Shown here: positions 31,353-52,172 of the stretch, piece after piece
Position numbering within the stretch: the first letter of the stretch is position 1
Layout: every line of letters begins with the position of its first letter
Origin: Nitrospira sp.
GTDB taxonomy: Bacteria; Nitrospirota; Nitrospiria; Nitrospirales; Nitrospiraceae
Length of the DNA stretch: 64,000 nt
Direction: 5' to 3'
Assembly (NCBI GenBank): GCA_024331125.1
Contig: JANDJI010000001.1
Coordinates: 342,001-406,000, forward strand
Notes under the pieces: generated by a model
Databases searched by the model: none
Seen by the model: the letters and a program-made list of their open reading frames with translations, nothing else
Told to the model about the DNA's origin: nothing
Translations under genes and position numbers: made by a program

Positions 31353-33083
31353 ATGTTGATCTTTAGACGCTTCTTGCCGTTCATTCAGCCGTATGTGACG
31401 CGGATGTTGGCAAGCGGCCTCCTCGTCATGAGCGTGGCCGCCGTCAATCTGGCTTTGCTTCGATTGACGGGCGCGCTGTGGGACGTCATCACGGTCCGAC
31501 AAGACGCCGACCGAATGACGGAACTGATCGGGGTCTTGCTCGGGCTCGTGCTTCTCCAAGGCCTCTGCACGATGGGGCACAGCTATTTGACCGCATGGGT
31601 GTCTCAACGAATCATGGCCGACTTCCGCCGGCACGTCTTCGCGCATTTGCAGACGCTGGACGTCAAATTCTTCGCCCGCCGCCGAACCGGCGAGCTGCTG
31701 TCGCGATTAATGAACGACGTCGGGATCATCCAGTCGGTCGCGACGGAACTGCCGATCGACAGCGCAAAACAGCTTGTCACGTTCGTCGGCGGACTGGCCT
31801 TTCTGTTCATGATGAATTGGCGTCTCTCGCTTCTGATCTTGATTCTTCTCCCGTTGTTGGTGTTGGTCGCCAAAATGTTCGGGCGCAGGCTCAAGGCCCT
31901 CTCCCTGTCGCTTCAAGACCAAACCGCCGCTCTCAACACCTTGGCCGAGGAAGTGATTTCCGGCATCCGCATCGTCAAATCGTTCGTGCAGACGAAGCGC
32001 GAAGAAGAGCGCTTTTCCGCCCAGATCGATCAAACCCTCCGCGTCACCATGCGCCGAGCCGGCATCATGGCCCTGTTCATTCCGACCATCAGCCTGCTCA
32101 CCTTTTCCATCGCGGCCGCCGTCATCTGGTACGGAGGCCGGCAAGTGGTCGAGGGCGCCATCACTCCCGGCGATCTGTTCGCCTTCATCTTGTTTGCGGG
32201 CATCCTGATCGGTCCCTTCAGTTCGGCCGCCCGTGTCTTCTCGCAAGTGAAAGAGGCTCAGGGCGCCATGCAACGGGTGTTCGAAATACTGGACGTGGAA
32301 CCGGCCGTTCAAGACCGGCCGGGAGCGATCGTCCTCTCCGCGGCGACCGGCCACGTGCGGTTTGAAGACGTCGGGTTCGCCTATGATTCACGCGCTCCCG
32401 TTCTCTCGCACTTATCGTTCGAGGCCAAGCCCGGCGAGGTCATTGCGATCGTCGGGCCGACCGGCGCCGGGAAGACGACCGTCGTCAATCTGCTCCACCG
32501 ATTCTATGACCCGACCGAAGGCCGGATCATGATCGACGGGTACGACCTGAAACAGGTGACCCTCGAGAGCTGGTATCGGCAATTGGCGCTGGTCCCGCAG
32601 GAAACCATTTTGTTCGGCGGCACCATTCTGGACAACGTCCGTTACGGGAATCCCGCCGCCGATGAAGAGGAAATAGAGCGCGCGTGCAAGGCGGCGCACG
32701 CCCACGACTTCATTATGAGTTTCCCCGACAAGTACTGCACCATCGTCGGGGAAAAGGGAATCAATCTCTCAGGAGGGCAGCGTCAACGTCTTGCGATCGC
32801 GCGGGCGATTCTGAAGAACCCACGCATCCTGCTGTTGGATGAAGCCACGTCTTCCCTTGACAGCGAGTCGGAACGTCTGGTCCAAGAAGCCATCGATCGC
32901 CTGATGCGCGGGAGAACGACGTTCGTCGTCGCCCATCGGCTTTCCACCGTCCAGCACGCCGACCGCATTCTCGTCTTGGACAAGGGCCGTCTCGTTGAAG
33001 AAGGCACCCATGCCCGGCTCATGGAGCGCAAAGGCCTCTATCACTATCTGTACACCATCCGCCTGAACGATCCGGTGGGATAG
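31353..33083 (+). CDS. MsbA-like lipid/drug ABC exporter
   Basis: The 576-residue half-transporter fuses an N-terminal membrane domain (six helices, about residues 1-310) to an ATPase domain. Walker A GPTGAGKT (369-376), signature LSGGQRQR (about 472), Walker B LLLLDEA (about 493) and the switch His in VAHRLS are all intact. The sequence is close to MsbA/LmrA-type exporters, which flip lipid A or lipids across the inner membrane as homodimers. The contrast with the motif-dead ABC protein at 44605 is notable. Substrate is inferred only from family. Confidence 0.88.
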   Translation: MLIFRRFLPFIQPYVTRMLASGLLVMSVAAVNLALLRLTGALWDVITVRQDADRMTELIGVLLGLVLLQGLCTMGHSYLTAWVSQRIMADFRRHVFAHLQTLDVKFFARRRTGELLSRLMNDVGIIQSVATELPIDSAKQLVTFVGGLAFLFMMNWRLSLLILILLPLLVLVAKMFGRRLKALSLSLQDQTAALNTLAEEVISGIRIVKSFVQTKREEERFSAQIDQTLRVTMRRAGIMALFIPTISLLTFSIAAAVIWYGGRQVVEGAITPGDLFAFILFAGILIGPFSSAARVFSQVKEAQGAMQRVFEILDVEPAVQDRPGAIVLSAATGHVRFEDVGFAYDSRAPVLSHLSFEAKPGEVIAIVGPTGAGKTTVVNLLHRFYDPTEGRIMIDGYDLKQVTLESWYRQLALVPQETILFGGTILDNVRYGNPAADEEEIERACKAAHAHDFIMSFPDKYCTIVGEKGINLSGGQRQRLAIARAILKNPRILLLDEATSSLDSESERLVQEAIDRLMRGRTTFVVAHRLSTVQHADRILVLDKGRLVEEGTHARLMERKGLYHYLYTIRLNDPVG

Positions 33084-35718: not shown

Positions 35719-37221
35719 TCACGCCCACCCTACCGCCTGCGGGGACGGCTCGTTGGCAAGGTCATAGGCCCGTCGGAGCTCGCCGGCCTCACGCTCGGCG
35801 ATATCGATCGATTCCGGGGCCGCTTGGCGGACGAATTCCACGAACATCGCTATCTTGACCAGGAAGAAATCATACGAACCTTCCATCGTCCTGGGACGTT
35901 CGAACCAAAAGGACACGAACGTGGAGAGCGGCACCCCCTTCTCGTCGAGCCGGCCGCAGGATTCCGGAAACATCGCGCGCACGTCACCTCCCCAGAACAG
36001 GATCTCGTAAGGAAGATAGACGGACCGATACAGATCCAGCTCATCGATGCAGGCTGTCGGCTGCGTCCACTCCGGTCCAAGCGGCTCAGCTTGTCCGGAA
36101 ACGACACGGGCATATCGTTCGTAGGCCGATTCGAGCGCCGACCTGACGACAGCCGACGCGCACTCTTTCGGAGTCGCAGGTATCTTCTCATCCGAAACGA
36201 GCGTCTTTTTGAGTCTGCGCCCCTCCGAGAAGACCCCTGCATAACGTTCCCGGAACTCCGAGAATTCTTCCACGATCAGCGGGACCGCCTTCGTGTCCAC
36301 CTCCAGCGCAAGCCCTCGCAGATTGGTCAAACGCGGATTCCCGAGAATCCGATCCAGCATCTCGAACAGACGCGCCGGAATGGGGGCGCCATGGGCGTCT
36401 ATCCAAGAGGGCAGGCGATCCGTTTCTTTCGGCCGTGGACAGACTTCTGGAACGCCTTTATCGGCGGTATGGAGATCGAGCCCGGCGACGTGGATTTGGA
36501 CGACGCGATGCAAGGGAAACTCTTCAAGAAATCCGTCGACGAATCGCTCAAGGGAAGCCGTTCGCCAAGCCCCTGAGTAACGAAAGACGGTCCACAGATG
36601 CCCGACATCGAGCACAAGCCCGCACGGAGCGGCCCGGGTAATAAGGCGGAAAAACGTCGGGATCGGCAGGGTGCCGGCCACAAAATAGGTCAATGGAGGC
36701 AGCTCAAGAAGCAGTAGCGGGGAGCGGCCGTTCACGAAGCCATCATGCCGATCAAGCATGGCTTGTGCGGCCATTGCATTTTCTGCCACCACGGCCGCGC
36801 CGGCTTCGGTATAAAGCGGCGGCAAATAAGTTCCATACGAATAACCGGCGATAGATTTGGCGGCGCATTCGTGTGTCAGCCATGCACTGCCGAGCGCCGA
36901 CAGATGGCGCGCGACCTCATCCATTTCCCTGTGAAACATCGGATCTTCGCGAACGCCCGGCTGCGTCAGCCACAGCCCTTCTCCGTGGTATGGAGTCAAG
37001 CTTTCGCCCATCCGGTTCCTGACGGCGGCCAACGCCGTAGGAGCCGCGCGAAAGATCTCCACATAGTCGGGAAACACTTGACGTTGGCGCAGCGTTCCAA
37101 GCAAGGTAAAGATGTCAGGAGAATAGACGTCGAGGGAAAGGCCCAGCCCATGAAGCTGGACCTGCTCAAGACGACGGAGGAACGATCGCTCGACGAGATC
37201 CGGAGTCTCCATACCATTCAT
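35719..37221 (-). CDS. MNIO (DUF692) oxidative enzyme with C-terminal extension
   Basis: The start at 37221 gives 500 residues. The DUF692 barrel is seen in HGEGLWL (His79), THECAAKS (His117), ENAM (Glu148), LDVGHLW (Asp205, His208), IHVAG (His244), IDAHGAP and LALEVD (Glu307). These match metal ligands of the multinuclear non-haem iron enzymes such as MbnB and TglH, which modify Cys residues in ribosomal peptides. About 150 residues follow the barrel and match no partner I know. No precursor peptide or partner gene lies next to it; instead it leads dus and maf. Substrate unknown. Confidence 0.8.
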   Translation of the reverse strand: MNGMETPDLVERSFLRRLEQVQLHGLGLSLDVYSPDIFTLLGTLRQRQVFPDYVEIFRAAPTALAAVRNRMGESLTPYHGEGLWLTQPGVREDPMFHREMDEVARHLSALGSAWLTHECAAKSIAGYSYGTYLPPLYTEAGAAVVAENAMAAQAMLDRHDGFVNGRSPLLLLELPPLTYFVAGTLPIPTFFRLITRAAPCGLVLDVGHLWTVFRYSGAWRTASLERFVDGFLEEFPLHRVVQIHVAGLDLHTADKGVPEVCPRPKETDRLPSWIDAHGAPIPARLFEMLDRILGNPRLTNLRGLALEVDTKAVPLIVEEFSEFRERYAGVFSEGRRLKKTLVSDEKIPATPKECASAVVRSALESAYERYARVVSGQAEPLGPEWTQPTACIDELDLYRSVYLPYEILFWGGDVRAMFPESCGRLDEKGVPLSTFVSFWFERPRTMEGSYDFFLVKIAMFVEFVRQAAPESIDIAEREAGELRRAYDLANEPSPQAVGWA

Positions 37222-42992: not shown

Positions 42993-43029
42993 ACCCAAAG
43001 CTCCCACTATCAATGTGGGAGCTTTGGGT
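42993..43029 (-). terminator. Perfect 15-bp hairpin
   Basis: ACCCAAAGCTCCCAC and GTGGGAGCTTTGGGT form a perfect stem around a seven-base loop. There is no long T-run on either side, so it could be a terminator for the exporter operon or a stable leader for purE. Confidence 0.55.
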
Positions 43030-43122: not shown

Positions 43123-44565
43123 TTATTTAATACCTTGTCCGGTCGTCCTGGGCATGAACATCTCAAAGATGCTGGGCTCGCGCTCGGTATAATCAGGCGG
43201 GAAGAAGTTGAATCGCCGCCACAATTCATACCACAGCGGAACGCGATTCAGAATAACCCAACCCAGAACCTTCGTCCCTTGCCGAACCCGTGATTGGTCG
43301 GGCCATGGTTGCGAATCTTCAGGGTCCGGCACCACCCAGAATCTAAAATTGCCTTTGCCATCGTCGATCTGATCGACGACTCGAATGATGCCGGTCCGAG
43401 TGCCTGCCATCAACTCCGGCCAAGCTGGCAATGGAATCGCCGGAACTCCGAAGAAGAGAATTTTCACCTTTCGCCCTGGCGTCAAGAGCGGGGCGTCCAA
43501 CCCTTCGGCCATCATTTCAATCGCAACGTCCTCCGCCTTGGGAGACAGTGTGACGAGTGTCTCCCCTTGCTTGATAGTCTCCATGATGCCGATCCTTGCC
43601 TGCCTAACCACGGTCCCGTCCATCGTTGCATAGATCTTGGCTGCTTCAATACGCTGCTGAGTATTTTGCAGGCGAACCGTGACGTCCGCCAACTCGTCCG
43701 CAGCCTTTGCCGCATCGGCAACCGCTTGGTCACGAGCGGCTTCCGCGTCGATCAGCTGTTGCCACACATCGGCGGTAATCTGGTCCCGACCAAAGGCCAG
43801 GGCCTCTCTCGCCCGTTCGGCAGCTTTCAGATTCGCCTCCGCCGCTTGCAGAGCAGCTTTTGAGGCCACCTCATCTTGGATAGCCAATTCAAGTTCCCGT
43901 TGAGAAACCAGCCCGTCCTTCACGAGCTGTCGATGTCGATCAACGTTGAGCAGCGCCGTAGTCAAGTCGATCTTGGCCGCCTCAAGCTTTTGCTGCGCCT
44001 CGCGCACCCTATTTTCCGCCTCTACCACCCTTGCATCGGCCGATGGGACGGCGGCCTTGACCAAATTTCTCATTTGTCCGATGCGCTTGTTCAACTGATC
44101 AGCCCTGGCCAAAGCGGCCTCTCGCTTTTGCTGCAACGCGACCTTGCGTTGCTCCAAGAGGGCAATAATCTCCGGCGCCATGAAATTCGGATCATAGTCT
44201 TCAAGCTCGGCGATGAGATCGCCTTTCTTTACCGGCATGCCTTCATAGACATGCCACGCCTTCAGTCGACCGGTGATACGAGATTCAATATTTTGAGGCC
44301 TTTCATACGGCGTATAGGCTGATACTTTTCCCACGGCACTGATCGTCTGTGTCCATGGGATAAACTCGACAATGATCAAAATCAGAAGAAGTATGGTTAA
44401 TGTTACCCGTGATGAGCCGAGCAAACTTTTTGGTACCTTTACGGCCTGCCACGATGACATGTTGGCCGCACCAGCCATCATGTCGATATCAGCAGCCGCA
44501 ATCCCCGGGCCCGGTTGTGATACCACAAGCGCTCTTTCTTCTGAATTACCTTGTTGGCGAGCCAT
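43123..44565 (-). CDS. HlyD-type periplasmic adaptor (membrane fusion) protein
   Basis: The start at 44565 follows GGGAGG. The 480-residue protein has a cytoplasmic N-terminus, one membrane helix (VTLTILLLILIIVEFIPW), a lipoyl-like domain (GRLKAWHVYEGMPVKKGDLIAELED), a long alpha-helical hairpin (about residues 150-300, many Ala, Glu and Gln repeats) and a beta-barrel end (IKQGETLVTLSPKAED, GRKVKILFFGVPAIP). Adaptors of this kind link an inner-membrane exporter to a TolC channel. It is the last gene of the operon that encodes the ABC subunit and three TolC-like proteins. Confidence 0.88.
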   Translation of the reverse strand: MARQQGNSEERALVVSQPGPGIAAADIDMMAGAANMSSWQAVKVPKSLLGSSRVTLTILLLILIIVEFIPWTQTISAVGKVSAYTPYERPQNIESRITGRLKAWHVYEGMPVKKGDLIAELEDYDPNFMAPEIIALLEQRKVALQQKREAALARADQLNKRIGQMRNLVKAAVPSADARVVEAENRVREAQQKLEAAKIDLTTALLNVDRHRQLVKDGLVSQRELELAIQDEVASKAALQAAEANLKAAERAREALAFGRDQITADVWQQLIDAEAARDQAVADAAKAADELADVTVRLQNTQQRIEAAKIYATMDGTVVRQARIGIMETIKQGETLVTLSPKAEDVAIEMMAEGLDAPLLTPGRKVKILFFGVPAIPLPAWPELMAGTRTGIIRVVDQIDDGKGNFRFWVVPDPEDSQPWPDQSRVRQGTKVLGWVILNRVPLWYELWRRFNFFPPDYTEREPSIFEMFMPRTTGQGIK

Positions 44566-44604: not shown

Positions 44605-46281
44605 TTACATATGGGCATGATGCAGCATCACACGGCGATCAGCATGATCCGTCAAGTTGGGATCAGTGGACACAAAAATCACCGACCAAGGTTCTTCTTT
44701 CGCACAGAGCCGACGCAAGATTCTCTCCCGCAGCGATGGTTCCAGGCTGTGAATGAGACCGTCGAAGATCAGAACTTGCGGCCGACCAAGAATAGCCCTG
44801 GCAAGAAGGATTTGGACGGCATGACTTGGGGAAAGTGCTTCGCCTAGCTCTGAGATATCCGATTTGATGCCTTGAGGAAGGACATCAATATCTTCTTCGA
44901 GTTCTGTAAAACGGAGCGCCCATATAATGTCATCGTACGTAACGTAGGATCGTCCAAGCACGATGTTGTCTTCGATCGTCCCCTTCAGCAGAGAAAGCTG
45001 AGAATCGATCATCACGCTCCGACATTGACTGAGGACGGTGGGATCGATATATCGCAAATCAACGCCATTATATTGGACAACGCCGCTGGTCGGCGCTTCC
45101 AACCCTCCCAACACCCTCGCCAACGCCGTTTTCGCGGTGGTGGTGCGGGCATAAATACCGAGCTTTTCTCCCGGAGCGACGTCCAAATTGAAACCATCAA
45201 ACACGGGCGCTCCGTCATGAACCAGTCCCACGCTTTTGCAGGTGACTCGGATCCCCTCGTTCAGATGCGAGGGCAACGCGACCGTGGACGCCGTGGGGAG
45301 CGGATCACGCTGAAGCGAGAAGAAATCGCTCAGTTCCATGACGGCCGTGAAGAAATAATACACGTGGCCCATGTTTTTGATCAGCGAGTCAAAATTGAGC
45401 ACCAAGGCGCTGACCACCACTTCGGCCGCCACCAACTGACCGAGAGTCATTTGGCCCTGCGCCATCAACCATCCGGCGAGCGCCAACGCACCGGCTTGCG
45501 CGACTGCTTGCCCGGAGACGGAACCGATGTACTGACGCAACAAGACGCGAATTCTCGCCTTTCGAGTTTCGGTGTAGCGGTTAATAAGCTGGTCAGTCTT
45601 CTGCATGATCCAGGCAGAACTGTCCGTTGCCTTCAGCTGCAAGACATTGCGCGAAATATCCTGCATCCAATCGAAGACTTCATACTTGGCCTCGGCCATA
45701 TCCATTGTTGTCCGTAACGCGCCGCGGGAAAGAACAAAAAAGGTGATGGCGAAGCCGACCATCAGCAACATGTCGTACACAAGAAAATAGGGGTGATAAA
45801 TCACCAGCAGGGCCATACCCACTGTCCCACCCACGACGACGTTCACCAAATCGATGAGAAGCGTGGACAAGGCACGCTGCATGAACACGATCTCAATAAA
45901 GCGATTGGCCGCTTCCGGCCTAAAGCCTTGGAAGCGATAACGTGGCAGCTGTTGTGCCATGGCAATGGCCACCCGAGCAAAGATCCGCCGCTGCACGATT
46001 TCAACCGCATAGAAGTGGAAGGTCTTGAACATGCCGACGAATAGCAAGACCGCCAGCATGATGCCGGTCAACGTCCAAATCATCACGGGCTGAACGGCAT
46101 AGGAGAAGGTGCTGACGAGTTCTTGAACCGTTAAGGGGACGATAAGGGAGAACAGTCCGATCGCAAGAGCATAGGCCAGGATGACGGTGAGCAATTTTTT
46201 CTCGACACGCGACCCTACAGAGAGCTGTCTCATCAGTGCTTGAAACAAGTTCGGATAGTTTGAACCGTAAAGCTCTTTCAT
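44605..46281 (-). CDS. ABC exporter subunit with degenerate ATPase motifs
   Basis: The start at 46281 follows AGGGGG. Residues 1-320 form a six-helix transporter domain like those of type I secretion exporters. The C-terminal ~220 residues align with an ABC ATPase domain but lack its motifs. Walker A reads ARTTTAKT (about 378-385, normally GxxGxGKT), the signature reads LSPSH instead of LSGGQ, Walker B reads VLIFDG with Gly in place of the catalytic Glu, and the switch-His position reads VSTDPN. The frame is intact across all of these and the domain boundaries are normal, so this is not a sequencing artefact in one place. It probably needs another ATPase or acts without ATP hydrolysis. Confidence 0.85.
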   Translation of the reverse strand: MKELYGSNYPNLFQALMRQLSVGSRVEKKLLTVILAYALAIGLFSLIVPLTVQELVSTFSYAVQPVMIWTLTGIMLAVLLFVGMFKTFHFYAVEIVQRRIFARVAIAMAQQLPRYRFQGFRPEAANRFIEIVFMQRALSTLLIDLVNVVVGGTVGMALLVIYHPYFLVYDMLLMVGFAITFFVLSRGALRTTMDMAEAKYEVFDWMQDISRNVLQLKATDSSAWIMQKTDQLINRYTETRKARIRVLLRQYIGSVSGQAVAQAGALALAGWLMAQGQMTLGQLVAAEVVVSALVLNFDSLIKNMGHVYYFFTAVMELSDFFSLQRDPLPTASTVALPSHLNEGIRVTCKSVGLVHDGAPVFDGFNLDVAPGEKLGIYARTTTAKTALARVLGGLEAPTSGVVQYNGVDLRYIDPTVLSQCRSVMIDSQLSLLKGTIEDNIVLGRSYVTYDDIIWALRFTELEEDIDVLPQGIKSDISELGEALSPSHAVQILLARAILGRPQVLIFDGLIHSLEPSLRERILRRLCAKEEPWSVIFVSTDPNLTDHADRRVMLHHAHM

Positions 46282-46352: not shown

Positions 46353-47951
46353 TTAATCACGTCCCTGCAGCTTTCGGCCTGACAAACCGGCAGCGGTGGC
46401 AGGATCACCGTACTTTGCCAAAATATTATCGGGCACAGGCTTCGACAGCGCACCCTTGGCCCATAAATAGCCGCCCCGTGCCAGATCGTAATCGTACTGC
46501 GCTTGATAGAGCTCATAGGCAGCCTCGACGGCGTTTCGCTCTCGCAGATTCACGAACAAGAGACTGGTGATACCCATATCGAATCGCTTCTGCTCACCGG
46601 CCAACAGGGTCTGCGCCAATTGATACGCTTCCGTGGCGGCCTTCACACGGTCCCTGGCCCGCACGATGGCGGACACCCAGTTATCAACGTCGAGACTGAC
46701 TTTTTGCTCGGCATTCCACAGGTCATACGTCAGCCGTTCCTGTTCGGCTTCCGCGTGGGCTACTTTACCGCGGGCCTCGCGATTAAACAGAGGCATGCTA
46801 AGAACGGTCCCCACTCGGTAGCCGAACCCTCCAATCCAGTAGATGCCACCGACGGAACGCCCCCCTTCAAGCTCTAGTTTTGGGAGCAACTTATTTTTCG
46901 CCAGCTTAAGATCGATATTGTTCATCTGAACATCGATTGCCAGCTTCCGCACTTCCGGGCGGTCTTCCCTGGCCGCAACTTTGGCCTCAGCAATTTCATC
47001 CTGGGTCGGCAAAGGTGTTTCCCCTCCAAACTCCGGCGCCCACTCCGGTCTCGGAGTCGTAGGTTCACCGTTCTCCCAGAGAAACAGTGACAATTTATAT
47101 TGCTCAAGCTCGACCTTTCGCTGAGCGGTAATCGCAGCCTCTCGGCGGCGCTGAACCTCTTGACCTGCCTCGACAACGTCGAGCGGCGATACCAATCCTG
47201 CCTTCGCCTGTCCATCGACTTGAGCAAAGCGCGCCTCGGCTACCTCCAGCGCCTGCCTCTGCACCTCGGCCTGCTTGACCGCCAACTGCCAATCCCAGTA
47301 CTGCACGGCCCCGGCTAAGAAGAGATCTTGCCGCGTCTGAGCCACTTTCACCTCGGCCAACGGTCCTGCCAGTTCGGCCTGTTGAAACTCGGCAAACTCA
47401 TCATTGATCATGAAACCGCGAAGGAGATTAAACGCTCCGCCGACGATGAGCATTTGCTGTGGATAGAAGAGTTCAAGATCTTCAGGGAACGCCACCGGTC
47501 CCCCGACCGGAGAACGAGGGATAGCTCCGGCACCAGTGAGGGTTGCACGATCTCCAAAACCGTGACGGATACCACCGAAAATATTGAACCCATAGGGATG
47601 TCCAACCTTAAGCATGGTATCGTTATAAGCGGCTACCAACGTATTCGGCACACCTTGCACGTTGGTCAGGTTCCACGTTTGGTAGCGGTCGACCTCGACT
47701 TCATTCTTTAACTTTGGTTCCCACGCCCCCAACGCCTTCAAGACCTTTGCCCGAGCCTGCGCCCGTTCCAGTCCAGTCGCCCGAATCAATGGATGAGTCA
47801 ACTCGATTCTGGCCAGCACCTCTTCAATGGTCAATGGAGCGGTCCGCATCGACGTCTGCTCCGGTGATCCCGTGACCGTCGGCGTCTCCGCCAAAGCAAC
47901 TACTGGCATCCAGACCAACGAGACTAACAACGCCACCAACAAAGCGATCAC
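46353..47951 (-). CDS. TolC-like outer membrane efflux protein, paralogue 1
   Basis: A GTG at 47951 follows AAAGGAG and starts a signal peptide (VIALLVALLVSLVWMPVVALA); upstream in-frame starts at 47984 are less supported. The mature part has the TolC-family pattern LTIEEVLARIELTHPLIRATGLERAQARAKVLKALGAWEP and RAKVLKALGAWEP-type helices. It has repeated long alpha-helical segments and ends ILAKYGDP. TolC proteins form trimeric outer-membrane tunnels. Two closely similar genes lie directly upstream on the same strand. The operon ends with the degenerate ABC subunit and the adaptor. Confidence 0.87.
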   Translation of the reverse strand: MIALLVALLVSLVWMPVVALAETPTVTGSPEQTSMRTAPLTIEEVLARIELTHPLIRATGLERAQARAKVLKALGAWEPKLKNEVEVDRYQTWNLTNVQGVPNTLVAAYNDTMLKVGHPYGFNIFGGIRHGFGDRATLTGAGAIPRSPVGGPVAFPEDLELFYPQQMLIVGGAFNLLRGFMINDEFAEFQQAELAGPLAEVKVAQTRQDLFLAGAVQYWDWQLAVKQAEVQRQALEVAEARFAQVDGQAKAGLVSPLDVVEAGQEVQRRREAAITAQRKVELEQYKLSLFLWENGEPTTPRPEWAPEFGGETPLPTQDEIAEAKVAAREDRPEVRKLAIDVQMNNIDLKLAKNKLLPKLELEGGRSVGGIYWIGGFGYRVGTVLSMPLFNREARGKVAHAEAEQERLTYDLWNAEQKVSLDVDNWVSAIVRARDRVKAATEAYQLAQTLLAGEQKRFDMGITSLLFVNLRERNAVEAAYELYQAQYDYDLARGGYLWAKGALSKPVPDNILAKYGDPATAAGLSGRKLQGRD

Positions 47952-47976
47952 GAAAGAACGCTCCTTTGTTGTCGAA

Positions 47977-49560
47977 TTAATCACGCCCCCGTTGCTTGTA
48001 GCCGTTCTTGCCTGCTGCCGTCAGTGGATCCCCATACTTAGCCAAGACGGCGTCCGCCGCCGGCTTCGACAAAGCCCCTCTTGCCCAGAGAAGGCCGCCC
48101 CGTGCCAGATCGTAATCGTACTGCGCTTGATAGAGTTCAAATGCCGCTTCAACGGCGTTCTGCTCTCGCAAATTCACAAATAAAATACTGGAGATCCCCA
48201 TGTCGAATCGTTTTCTCTCTCCCTCTTCCAGCGCCTTGGCCAATCGATAGGCTTCCGTCGCCGCCCTCACGCGGTCCCTGGCCCGAACAATCGCCGAGAG
48301 CCAATTGTCTACATCGACGCTGGCCTGTTGCTCGGTGTACAACTGGCTCAAGACCAATTGCTGCTGCTCCGCCTCCGCGTCCATGACCTTTCCACGCCCC
48401 TCTCGCTGGAACAAGGGCATCTCGAATTCCGTTGCGTACCGATATCCCACACCCACAATCCAATCTCCGGCCGCATCCATGCGTCCGCCCTCAACATTGA
48501 ACTTCGGCAGCAGCTTGTTCTTGGCCAGCTTAAGATCAATATTGTTCATCTTGGCTTCGATGTATAGGGCTCGCACTTCCGGCCGCTCTTCCTTCGCCTC
48601 CACTTTATAGGCCGCAATCTCCTCTTCCGCCGGAATCGGCGTTTCGCCCTGAAACTCCGGCGCCCACTCCGGTCGCGGAGTCACAGGTTCGCCGTTCTCC
48701 CAGAGAAACAGCGACAATTTGTATTGCTCAAGCTCGACCTTTCGTTGCGCGGCTATGGCAGCCTCCCGCCGGCGTTGAACTTCCTGGCCAATCTCCACCA
48801 CATCAAGCGGCGACACCTTGCCCGCCTTGGCCTGGCCCTCAATCTGCTCGAAACGAGCTTCCGCCACGGCCAGATTCTGCTTCCGCACCTCCGCCTGTTT
48901 AACAGCCAACTGCCAATCCCAATATTGGATGGCCCCGGCGAGATAGAGATCCTGGCGTTTCTGGGCCACCTTCACCTCCGCGAGTGGCCCCGCCAGTTCG
49001 GCCTGCTGAAACTCGGCGTACTCGTCGTTGACCATCAAGCCGCGCAGCAGCTTGAACGATCCGCCGACGATGACTTGCTGCTGAGGATAGAAAAGCTGAA
49101 GGTCAGGAATCAGAGCGACGGTTCCTCCCGAGTTAGGAGGTGTCCCGACCATGGAGCGATCCCCAAAGCCGTTGCGAATTCCGCCATGAATCCGGAACCC
49201 CCAAGGATGTCCGACCTCGATCTTGCTGTCGTTAAATCCCGCCGTCGCCACATGGTCATAGGTCAGGAAGTTCCAAATCTGAACACGAGCAGCTTCGGTA
49301 ATGTTTTTAAACGTCGGTTCCCAGGCCCCGAGCGCTTTCAAGATTTTCGCTCGGGCCTGTTTCCGCTCAACCCCCGTCGCTCGAAGCAGAGGATGAGTCA
49401 GCTCGATTCTGGCGAGAACTTCTTCGATGGTGAGTGGAGCGGTGCGGTCCGGTTGAAGTTGCAGGGGCTCCGCATTACTCACCGTTTCCGCCATCGTCGT
49501 CACAGGAAACAGAATGAGAATCGCAAATAAGAGAGCGGCCATAAAAGGATGTACCTTCAT
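47977..49560 (-). CDS. TolC-like outer membrane efflux protein, paralogue 2
   Basis: The start at 49560 opens MKVHPFMAALLFAILILFPVTTMAE as a signal peptide. The mature 500 residues share LTIEEVLARIELTHPLLRATG, VELEQYKLSLFLWENGEP and the C-terminal YGDPLTAAG with paralogues 1 and 3. Stretches are nearly identical at the DNA level, for example the segment around 48640-48720. Its stop is 26 bases before the start of paralogue 1. It probably forms homotrimers or mixed trimers with its siblings. Confidence 0.87.
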   Translation of the reverse strand: MKVHPFMAALLFAILILFPVTTMAETVSNAEPLQLQPDRTAPLTIEEVLARIELTHPLLRATGVERKQARAKILKALGAWEPTFKNITEAARVQIWNFLTYDHVATAGFNDSKIEVGHPWGFRIHGGIRNGFGDRSMVGTPPNSGGTVALIPDLQLFYPQQQVIVGGSFKLLRGLMVNDEYAEFQQAELAGPLAEVKVAQKRQDLYLAGAIQYWDWQLAVKQAEVRKQNLAVAEARFEQIEGQAKAGKVSPLDVVEIGQEVQRRREAAIAAQRKVELEQYKLSLFLWENGEPVTPRPEWAPEFQGETPIPAEEEIAAYKVEAKEERPEVRALYIEAKMNNIDLKLAKNKLLPKFNVEGGRMDAAGDWIVGVGYRYATEFEMPLFQREGRGKVMDAEAEQQQLVLSQLYTEQQASVDVDNWLSAIVRARDRVRAATEAYRLAKALEEGERKRFDMGISSILFVNLREQNAVEAAFELYQAQYDYDLARGGLLWARGALSKPAADAVLAKYGDPLTAAGKNGYKQRGRD

Positions 49561-49566
49561 TGCTAA

Positions 49567-51120
49567 TTAATCGCGTCCCGGCTGTTTGTGACCATTCATA
49601 CCCGCCGCTGTCAGCGGATTCCCATACTTGACCAAGACGGCGTCAGCCACCGGCTTCGACAAAGCTCCTATCGCCCAGAGGAGACCGCCGCGAGCCACGA
49701 CATAGTCGGCTTGCGCCCGATACAATTTATAAGCTGTGTCCACAGCGTTCTGCTCTCGCAAATTGACAAATAGAATGCTCGACTTCCCCAGATTGAACCG
49801 TTTTCGTTCGCCCTCCTCCAGTTCTTTAGCCAGTCTGTATGATTCCGTAGCGGCCCTGACCCTGTCCCTGGCCCGCACGATCGCCGAGAGCCAATTGTCC
49901 ACATCGAAGCCGACTTGTTGCTCGGTATATTGCTGCTTCAAGGCCAATTGCGCCAGCCCTACTTCGGCGGACATGACCTTCCCACGCCCTTCCCGCTGGA
50001 ACAGCGGCATCTCGAAATGAAGCCCGACCCTGTAGCCGACCCCCACAATCCAGTCCGTGGCGGCATCGGTCGGCCCCCCTTCAAGAACCAACTTGGGGAG
50101 CAACTTGTTCTTGGCCAGCTTGAGATCAATGTTGTTCATCTTGGCTTCGATGTACAGGGCCCGCACTTCCGGGCGATCTTCTTTTGCTTCCGCTTTATAA
50201 GCCGCGATCTCCTCCTCGGTCGGCAGCGGCGTTTCACCCTGAAACTCCGGCGCCCACTCCGGTCGCGGAGTCACAGGTTCGCCGTTTTCCCAGAGAAACA
50301 ACGACAACTTGTACTGCTCAAGCTCAACCTTCCGCTGAGCGGCAATCGCTGCCTGCTTGCGACGCTGTACCTCTTGCCCCGCTTCGACGACATCAAGTGG
50401 CGACACCTTACCCGCCTTGGCCTGGCCCTCGATCTGCTCGAAGCGAGCTTCCGCCACGGCCAACGCTTGCTTCACAACCTCGGCCTGTTTGACCGCCACC
50501 TGCCAATCCCAGTATTGGATGGCCCCGGCCAGATAGAGATCCTGCCGCTTTTGGGCCACTTTCACTTCCGCGAGCGGCCCCGCCAGTTCGGCCTGCTGAA
50601 ACTCGGCGTTTTCCTCGTTGATGATCAAGCCGCGCAACAGCTGGAACGACCCCCCGACGATGAGCTGCTGCTGAGGATAAAAAAGCTGGAGATCAGGAAT
50701 AATGGCTATGACGCTCTGATTGATACGGTCCCCGAAGCCATTGCGGATCCCGCCATGGACCTGAAAACCCCAGGGATGCCCGACTACGAGCTTGGTATCA
50801 TTAAATCCCCCGGTCTGGATGTTCGGCAAAAAGGGTGACGTCGTGAGGTTCCACGTTTCATAGCGCTCGACTTCTGTAATATTCTTGACCGTCGGTTCCC
50901 ACGCCCCGAGCGCCTTCAGGACCTTCGCGCGAGCCTTCATACGCTCGGCTCCGGTCGCCCGCAGCAGGGGATGAGTCAACTCGATTCTCGCAAAAACTTC
51001 TTCGATGGTGAGGGGAGCGGTGCGGATCGACTGAGCCTGCTGGGTCCTCGAATCGGTTACCGGTTCCGCCAGTGCGATCATCGGGGACAAGATGAGCACG
51101 ACCAGCAACGGGGCGATCAC
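49567..51120 (-). CDS. TolC-like outer membrane efflux protein, paralogue 3
   Basis: A GTG at 51120 follows AAAGGAG, the same ribosome-binding context as paralogue 1, and starts the signal peptide VIAPLLVVLILSPMIALAE. The mature protein has LTIEEVFARIELTHPLLRATG, WENGEPVTPRPEWAPEFQ and ends YGNPLTAAG. It is the first gene of the operon and is divergent from the LysR regulator at 51276. The 517-residue length matches the others. No lipobox is seen. Confidence 0.87.
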   Translation of the reverse strand: MIAPLLVVLILSPMIALAEPVTDSRTQQAQSIRTAPLTIEEVFARIELTHPLLRATGAERMKARAKVLKALGAWEPTVKNITEVERYETWNLTTSPFLPNIQTGGFNDTKLVVGHPWGFQVHGGIRNGFGDRINQSVIAIIPDLQLFYPQQQLIVGGSFQLLRGLIINEENAEFQQAELAGPLAEVKVAQKRQDLYLAGAIQYWDWQVAVKQAEVVKQALAVAEARFEQIEGQAKAGKVSPLDVVEAGQEVQRRKQAAIAAQRKVELEQYKLSLFLWENGEPVTPRPEWAPEFQGETPLPTEEEIAAYKAEAKEDRPEVRALYIEAKMNNIDLKLAKNKLLPKLVLEGGPTDAATDWIVGVGYRVGLHFEMPLFQREGRGKVMSAEVGLAQLALKQQYTEQQVGFDVDNWLSAIVRARDRVRAATESYRLAKELEEGERKRFNLGKSSILFVNLREQNAVDTAYKLYRAQADYVVARGGLLWAIGALSKPVADAVLVKYGNPLTAAGMNGHKQPGRD

Positions 51121-51217
51121 GAGGATGCTCCTTTCGTCGTATGTATGTAACGTGTGTCTGCAGCGCGGGCGGGAGAGTAGCAATCACGGCCCTTTTATGA
51201 AAAATAGATAAAACGGA

Positions 51218-51247
51218 TTGGAATCTTCGTGAAAGACGATGTATAGT
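51218..51247 (+). promoter_or_regulatory. Promoter of the LysR regulator
   Basis: TTGGAA and TATAGT are separated by 18 bases. The start codon at 51276 lies 28 bases after the -10 box. It is in the 155-base region between the regulator and the divergent exporter operon. Confidence 0.5.
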
Positions 51248-51275
51248 GGACGCGCCGCTTTTCGACGTAAACCGT

Positions 51276-52172
51276 ATGGAATGGCTCAACTATCATCATT
51301 TGCTGTACTTTTGGTCCGTCGCCAAGCACGGCACGGTCGCTAAAGCCTGCGAGGAGCTTCGCCTCGCTCAGCCGACCATCAGCGGGCAGATCCGGCTCCT
51401 GGAACAATCTCTAGGTGAAAAATTGTTCGTGCGCACGGGACGCCGGCTTGCCCTGACCGAAATGGGACATGTGGTATTCGGATACGCGGAAGCCATCTTC
51501 GCCATGGGACAAGAGTTGCTGAACACGGTAAAAGGACGCGCAGAGGGGCACCAAGCACGCCTGGTCGTCGGCATCGCCGACGTCGTGCCGAAGCCGCTGG
51601 CGAATCATCTTCTCCGAGCGGGACTAAACTTGGATCAGCCCATGCACTTGATTTGTCAAGAGGACAAACTCCATCGGCTCCTGGCCGACTTAACAATGCA
51701 CCGATACGACCTTGTCATCTCCGACATGCCCGCGCCGCCGAACTTCAAAGTGCATGCCTACAGCCACCCCATCGGCGAATCGGGGGTGACGTTCTTCGGC
51801 ACGCCGAAATTGGCGTCGCTCTATCGGCGCGAGTTTCCTCGTTCACTGCACGGCGCCCCGATGCTCCTGCCTACCGCGGACGCAGCCCTTCGCCGATCGA
51901 TCGACCAATGGTTGGTCCACCACCACCTCCACCCCACCATCGTAGGCGAGTTCGATGACAGCGCGACGCTCAAAGCCTTTGGTCAGGAGGGATTCGGCAT
52001 TTTCCCCGGCGTGACTGCAATGGAAAAGGAAATCTGTCGCCAATACCGGGTATCGCCCATCGGCCGTCTGGATTCCGTCAAACAGCACTTTTATGCGATC
52101 ACCGTCGAACGCCGCCTCAAACATCCGGCGGTGCTGGCGATCGTCCAAGCAGCCCGGCGGGAGTTGGACTGA
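51276..52172 (+). CDS. LysR-family regulator, NhaR-like
   Basis: The start at 51276 gives MEWLNYHHLLYFWSVAKHGTVAKA, the NhaR-type N-terminal winged helix with QPTISGQIRLLEQ. The 298-residue protein has an effector-binding domain (ADVVPKPLANHLLRAGL, QEGFGIFPGVTAMEKE). NhaR activates Na+/H+ antiporter genes and responds to sodium in E. coli. Here the protein is divergent from the triplicated TolC operon, so control of that operon is likely. The signal sensed is not known. Confidence 0.85.
   Translation: MEWLNYHHLLYFWSVAKHGTVAKACEELRLAQPTISGQIRLLEQSLGEKLFVRTGRRLALTEMGHVVFGYAEAIFAMGQELLNTVKGRAEGHQARLVVGIADVVPKPLANHLLRAGLNLDQPMHLICQEDKLHRLLADLTMHRYDLVISDMPAPPNFKVHAYSHPIGESGVTFFGTPKLASLYRREFPRSLHGAPMLLPTADAALRRSIDQWLVHHHLHPTIVGEFDDSATLKAFGQEGFGIFPGVTAMEKEICRQYRVSPIGRLDSVKQHFYAITVERRLKHPAVLAIVQAARRELD

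Follow-up and report, generated by a model that had tools for sequence, protein, structure and literature searches.

A conserved ATPase-dead branch of type I secretion-like ABC exporters in Nitrospira and its relatives

The window analysed here, 64,000 nucleotides of a Nitrospira sp. genome (contig JANDJI010000001.1, positions 342,001 to 406,000), encodes an ATPase-dead ABC half-exporter that belongs to a conserved, and probably recurrently, ATPase-dead branch of type I secretion system (T1SS)-like ABC exporters. ABC transporters are defined by ATP use. This family keeps its architecture, its partner genes, and the constraint on its ATPase domain without catalysis in Nitrospirota, Sphingomonadaceae, and Bacteroidota. 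The system it most likely serves is a tripartite, type I secretion-like one that runs without its own ABC subunit hydrolysing ATP. No prior description of this family was found in the open literature, a search that reached few subscription papers.

The gene, its motifs, and its operon

The gene has two candidate starts, and residues are numbered on the 558-amino-acid form that begins at the ATG. The features of the gene are as follows.

44605 to 46281 (ATG) or 46287 (GTG), minus strand: ATPase-dead ABC half-exporter, six-helix membrane domain plus ATPase domain, 558 to 560 codons
45421 to 45423, minus strand: Glu287, in the last hydrophobic segment of the membrane domain
45127 to 45150, minus strand: Walker A position, ARTTTAKT (residues 378 to 385), glycines lost, K384 and T385 kept
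45004 to 45006, minus strand: Q-loop position, Asp426; the placement of the lost Gln hinges on a one-residue alignment gap
44821 to 44835, minus strand: signature (C-loop) position, LSPSH (residues 483 to 487) in place of LSGGQ
44758 to 44775, minus strand: Walker B, VLIFDG (residues 503 to 508), catalytic Glu replaced by Gly508, Asp D507 kept
44740 to 44751, minus strand: D-loop region, HSLE (residues 511 to 514), His511 nearly invariant in Nitrospirales
44665 to 44667, minus strand: switch-His position, Thr539

A canonical Walker A motif reads GxxGxGK[S/T]. A preliminary description of this DNA held that every catalytic motif is lost, which is accurate for the Walker A glycines, the Q-loop, the signature, the catalytic Glu, and the switch His, all of which are replaced, but too broad for K384, T385, and D507, which are retained. 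It also held that the frame and architecture are intact, and indeed the frame is open and the predicted exporter fold complete. We conclude that motif loss in the window gene is confirmed.

The ATPase domain is recognised by PF00005 (36.5 bits; cut-off 25), and PF00664 does not pick up the membrane domain. An AlphaFold2 model of the protein (mean pLDDT, 72.7) contains the complete exporter fold, with most of the ATPase domain at 80 to 90 and the membrane part at middling confidence, and the model is consistent with an ABC exporter that has a six-helix membrane domain. The top Foldseek match was HlyB of the HlyB/HlyD complex (E, 8.8e-20), and VIA-align superposed the ATPase domain on that of TAP1 at 2.2 Å over 222 residues. 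The first hydrophobic segment begins near residue 30, and an N-terminal peptidase-like domain is absent.

The following features surround the gene.

42993 to 43029, no strand: 15-pair stem between the operon and purE, a pattern match only
43123 to 44565, minus strand: HlyD-like periplasmic adaptor (biotin-lipoyl and HlyD_3 domains)
46353 to 47984, minus strand: TolC-like outer-membrane channel protein, third of three tandem paralogues
47977 to 49560, minus strand: TolC-like outer-membrane channel protein, second paralogue
49567 to 51183, minus strand: TolC-like outer-membrane channel protein, first paralogue
51246 to 52172, plus strand: divergent LysR-type regulator, NhaR equivalog (239 bits; cut-off 219)

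The operon reads OMF, OMF, OMF, ABC, HlyD, with gaps of 6, −8, 65, and 39 bases, and contains the single ABC subunit that the preliminary description had reported. It is followed, after 345 bases that include the stem, by purE and purK (named from their translations). The stem, going by its pattern, probably marks the operon end, and the NhaR-type LysR gene is, from its position, the probable regulator. No cargo gene was recognised, and a role in phage defence was dropped when PADLOC gave no match. Elsewhere in the window, the MbnB/TglH/ChrH family of RiPP-modification enzymes (PF05114; E, 4.4e-12) was matched at 36000 to 37200 on the minus strand. A live MsbA-like exporter is encoded at about 31400 to 33060 on the plus strand, outside the operon and some 13 kb from the dead gene; in many genomes of the genus the spacing is broadly similar.

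Of 91 distinct loci with 5 kb of sequence available on both sides, 83 have HlyD and TolC-like genes within 5 kb of the dead gene, and the loci without recognised HlyD and OMF genes are second-type ABC copies. Two main layouts occur. In the group of the window the order is LysR, two to five OMF genes, ABC, and HlyD; in sister genera it is HlyD, OMF, and ABC, frequently with a further ABC copy, and then a four-helix protein gene (4HB_MCP_1). The 4HB_MCP_1 membrane protein gene directly follows the dead ABC gene or genes at L101 (13565 to 14374), L131 (9934 to 10722), and other sister-genus loci; a search of the window's own genome for this predicted sensor gene did not find it. Five loci (L055, L137, L177, L179, and L180) carry a solo second-type dead ABC gene with no recognised HlyD or TolC-like neighbours, and that of L180 adjoins a glycosyltransferase gene. 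One locus (L067) has five tandem TolC-like paralogues, compared with the three at 46353 to 51183 in the window. TolC proteins are trimers, and the tandem paralogues may therefore form hetero-trimers or cargo-specific channels.

Conservation and history of the family

We aligned 148 relatives, nearly all from Nitrospirales, and 110 remained after clustering at 95% identity. Not one of the 110 has the catalytic Glu (Gly in 108), the switch His (Asn in 74, Thr in 31), the first or fourth-position glycine of Walker A, or the first glycine of the signature, and the third P-loop glycine is lost in 90. The Walker A Lys is kept in 90/110 and the Walker B Asp in 92/110. The replacements Gly508 and His511 are themselves fixed, being invariant or nearly so. 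Four other exporters of the same genome, placed in the same alignment, keep all motifs except for one Val in one signature. The alignment of relatives, which the preliminary description had proposed as a check, thus indicated that the loss of catalysis is old and shared, with canonical motifs at this locus in none of the 148.

A search of 59 related genomes indicated that the dead gene is present in nearly all members of the genus, with orthologue identities of 97 to 98% in two genomes and 68 to 76% in most, and also found relatives in another family of the order. The window's genome carries a second copy at a different place, a paralogue at 57% identity. Carriers in a scan of named genomes were mostly Nitrospira and other Nitrospirota, and 77 of 296 genomes in a sample of the phylum had the dead gene. 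Split reading frames were seen at L054 and L173, possibly through true decay or assembly error.

Compared with two near orthologues, the whole gene gave dN/dS values of 0.021 and 0.023. Per domain, the values against the same two orthologues were 0.014 to 0.015 for the ATPase domain and 0.027 to 0.029 for the membrane domain, such that the ATPase domain is at least as constrained as the rest, unlike what a relic would show. We conclude that the loss of catalysis has been kept under strong purifying selection.

Relatives outside Nitrospirota scored 204 to 422 bits against the family model, compared with 79 to 106 for ordinary exporters. On plasmids of Novosphingobium, Sphingobium, and Sphingomonas, the ABC protein of the ABC-HlyD-TolC trio has lost even the Walker B Asp, and the same holds for trios in five further genomes outside Nitrospirota. 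The trio of Novosphingobium aromaticivorans DSM 12444 comprises SARO_RS19820, SARO_RS19815, and SARO_RS19810. Plasmids of the Bacteroidota Persicobacter, Aureibacter, and Riemerella carry dead versions with motifs of yet another look; the plasmid relatives of Sphingomonadaceae and Bacteroidota share one three-gene order and are dead in different ways. On the plasmid of Sphingobium sp. KCTC 72723 (L215, 1362 to 5664), 44 bases separate a DUF2309 gene from the start of the dead ABC gene behind it; next come genes for the adaptor, TolC, and a LysR protein.

Four genomes outside Nitrospirota have a family member in which Walker A, the signature, Glu, and His are all canonical. A 16S sequence, from one genome of this live-motif group only, had about 80% identity to Alphaproteobacteria. 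The family design is, or once was, compatible with ATP use, since one clade carries canonical motifs. The member in a fifth genome, L201, is intermediate: it keeps Walker A (GPSGSGKS) and a signature (LSQGQ) and has DG and, at the switch position, Asn. The L201 gene (7426 to 9573) also encodes an N-terminal extension of about 140 residues, which aligns with the start of the LssB and HlyB models.

In a tree built from the membrane domain only, the family formed one clade (bootstrap, 100; SH-aLRT, 100; 42 family rows versus 5 outgroup rows). The live clade grouped with the dead Bacteroidota (98/92), which forces at least two changes of state, or three or four losses if loss is irreversible. The ATPase-domain-only tree forced one change of state. 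ATPase domains of live members are about 30 to 33% identical to those of dead Nitrospirales members and of ordinary exporters alike, and a domain swap could have given the live clade its ATPase domain. The preliminary description had taken simultaneous loss at all sites as an argument for selection against hydrolysis, a premise that fails among the relatives, where L201 and several Nitrospirales copies that retain GKTT show loss in steps. We conclude that motif loss is stepwise and was probably repeated.

Sister genera often have a second, tandem ABC gene in the operon, and both copies are dead. The tandem copies form two sister clades in the membrane-domain tree, indicating that the duplication predates the genera. 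The dead family offers a natural test of the non-hydrolytic roles of ATPase domains and of how tripartite systems are powered, and the live-motif clade and the half-dead L201 provide direct comparisons.

Candidate mechanisms and energy sources

We favor, at slightly better than even confidence, a reading in which the window gene encodes the inner-membrane subunit of a three-part (ABC-like, HlyD, TolC) export or conduit system without ATP hydrolysis of its own. The subunit would form a homodimer here, in sister genera two different dead subunits would pair with each other, and the dimer would dock HlyD and TolC. The inner-membrane path would then open and close without hydrolysis at the dimer's own ATP sites, with the ATPase domains as a structural or regulated lid, and the driving force would come from elsewhere, either from the cargo, through its gradient or its folding, or from an ion gradient that acts on conserved charged residues, Glu287 for instance. 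Set against this reading are the mostly retained Walker A Lys and Walker B Asp, the live exporters of every genome compared, one of which might in principle be a partner, the clade with canonical motifs, and the solo second-type copies that have no recognised HlyD or TolC-like neighbours. The HlyB/HlyD complex contains three HlyB dimers with six HlyD subunits (PMC11026475), and assembly of the haemolysin system is stated to need no energy (PMC8277102); both make a structural role for a dead ABC protein plausible. The passive scaffold that the preliminary description put forward may thus apply, as may a gate. A wider claim, which we advance only tentatively and consider doubtful, is that the tripartite T1SS-like machine of several phyla repeatedly dropped ATP hydrolysis and that its cargo is now moved by an ion gradient or diffuses through a gated pore of ABC fold, such that an ABC exporter would have become a non-ATP transporter.

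Energy could instead be supplied by a live ABC ATPase encoded elsewhere, with which the dead subunit would pair or share a ring. Three ABC dimers per haemolysin complex make mixed rings conceivable, and ordinary live exporters of the same fold were present in all 59 genomes compared; the window's own genome has four by PF00664. However, damage to both the signature and the Walker motifs would leave both composite sites of a dead/live dimer defective, and the only type I secretion-like live exporter of the window's genome adjoins an HlyD gene of its own (395 bits). Close homologues of that exporter are missing from seven genomes of 95 to 100% estimated completeness that keep the dead gene (G009, G025, G030, G050, G055, G057, and G058), so that its orthologue was rejected as an obligatory partner. 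Where the operon itself supplies two subunits, as in the sister genera, both are dead, which rules out a dead/live heterodimer within the operon for those genera. The suggestion in the preliminary description that the subunit may pair with another ATPase is therefore narrowed by the genome search: a T1SS-type partner is unlikely and an in-operon pair of dead and live subunits was not seen, whereas an ordinary exporter, being universal, is by co-occurrence still a conceivable partner. We regard powering by a live partner as unlikely.

Somewhat less probable again is nucleotide gating: the protein would bind nucleotide without hydrolysing it and serve as a nucleotide-gated channel or regulator, much like CFTR or the sulphonylurea receptors. 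With the Walker A Lys and the Walker B Asp mostly kept among the 110 relatives, weak nucleotide binding is possible judging by these residues, and the strong constraint on the ATPase domain and the predicted four-helix sensor gene beside the dead ABC gene in sister genera would fit gating. Against gating, all 110 relatives have lost two of the three P-loop glycines and most have lost the third, the ATP-clamping signature is gone too, and the sensor gene was not found in the window's own genome.

At a similarly low level, and ranked just below gating, stands a secondary transporter in which an ion gradient would drive conformational change through charged residues of the membrane domain. Glu287, Arg or Lys at position 136, and, mostly, Asp or Glu at position 130 are common to the family. 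Glu287 is present in nearly all members and is Asn in two ordinary T1SS ABC proteins, which also differ at residue 136. Moreover, an NhaR-type regulator (activator of an Na+/H+ antiporter) lies by the operon both in the window and in a second family of the order, and two relatives outside the phylum have a regulator close to the NhaR type. Against this reading, regulators of the NhaR type have further target genes, and the same charged residues occur in the live-motif clade and thus were not acquired with ATPase loss. The family-wide charged residues and the regulator make an ion gradient a candidate driver worth testing.

A pseudogene or assembly artefact would account for the many lost motif positions and the broken frames of a few relatives, but it is very improbable, and a recent pseudogene is ruled out, given that about 150 relatives, assembled independently, nearly all have open frames, that dN/dS is about 0.02, and that the replacements are conserved.

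Comparison with known systems

The system favored here, a tripartite conduit without hydrolysis by its own ABC subunit, most resembles HlyB and LssB in its exporter fold and in an operon with an HlyD adaptor and a TolC-like channel. The window protein differs from them in having neither working ATPase motifs nor the N-terminal domain, and it scored 122 bits with the LssB model (TIGR03375) and 104 bits with the HlyB model (TIGR01846), below their cut-offs of 693.1 and 725.55. The best NCBIfam matches were the NHLM bacteriocin exporters TIGR03796 and TIGR03797 (131.5 and 129.4 bits), also below cut-off (853.3 and 709.4), and these families are named as permease/ATPase subunits.

CFTR and the sulphonylurea receptors are ABC proteins that are not used for pumping, and they retain ATP binding and one or more competent sites. 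The likeness to the window protein would lie in the proposed non-pumping job.

At HlyD/M50/secondary-SecA loci of Planctomycetes and others, HlyD and OEP proteins have been described that have no working ABC transporter with them; these loci contain a SecA-like ATPase and yielded no ABC homologue (PMC4452313). The dead-gene locus, in contrast, has a protein of ABC fold, and the part of its neighbours that was scanned contained no SecA.

The heterodimeric exporters TM287/288, TmrAB, and TAP share with the window protein degenerate ATPase motifs that are kept by selection, as well as a structural match. A canonical composite ATP site is absent from the window protein, as the single subunit lacks both halves. 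Thus, whereas TM287/288, TmrAB, and TAP keep one working site by way of a partner, the window subunit and the tandem pair of the sister genera are dead throughout.
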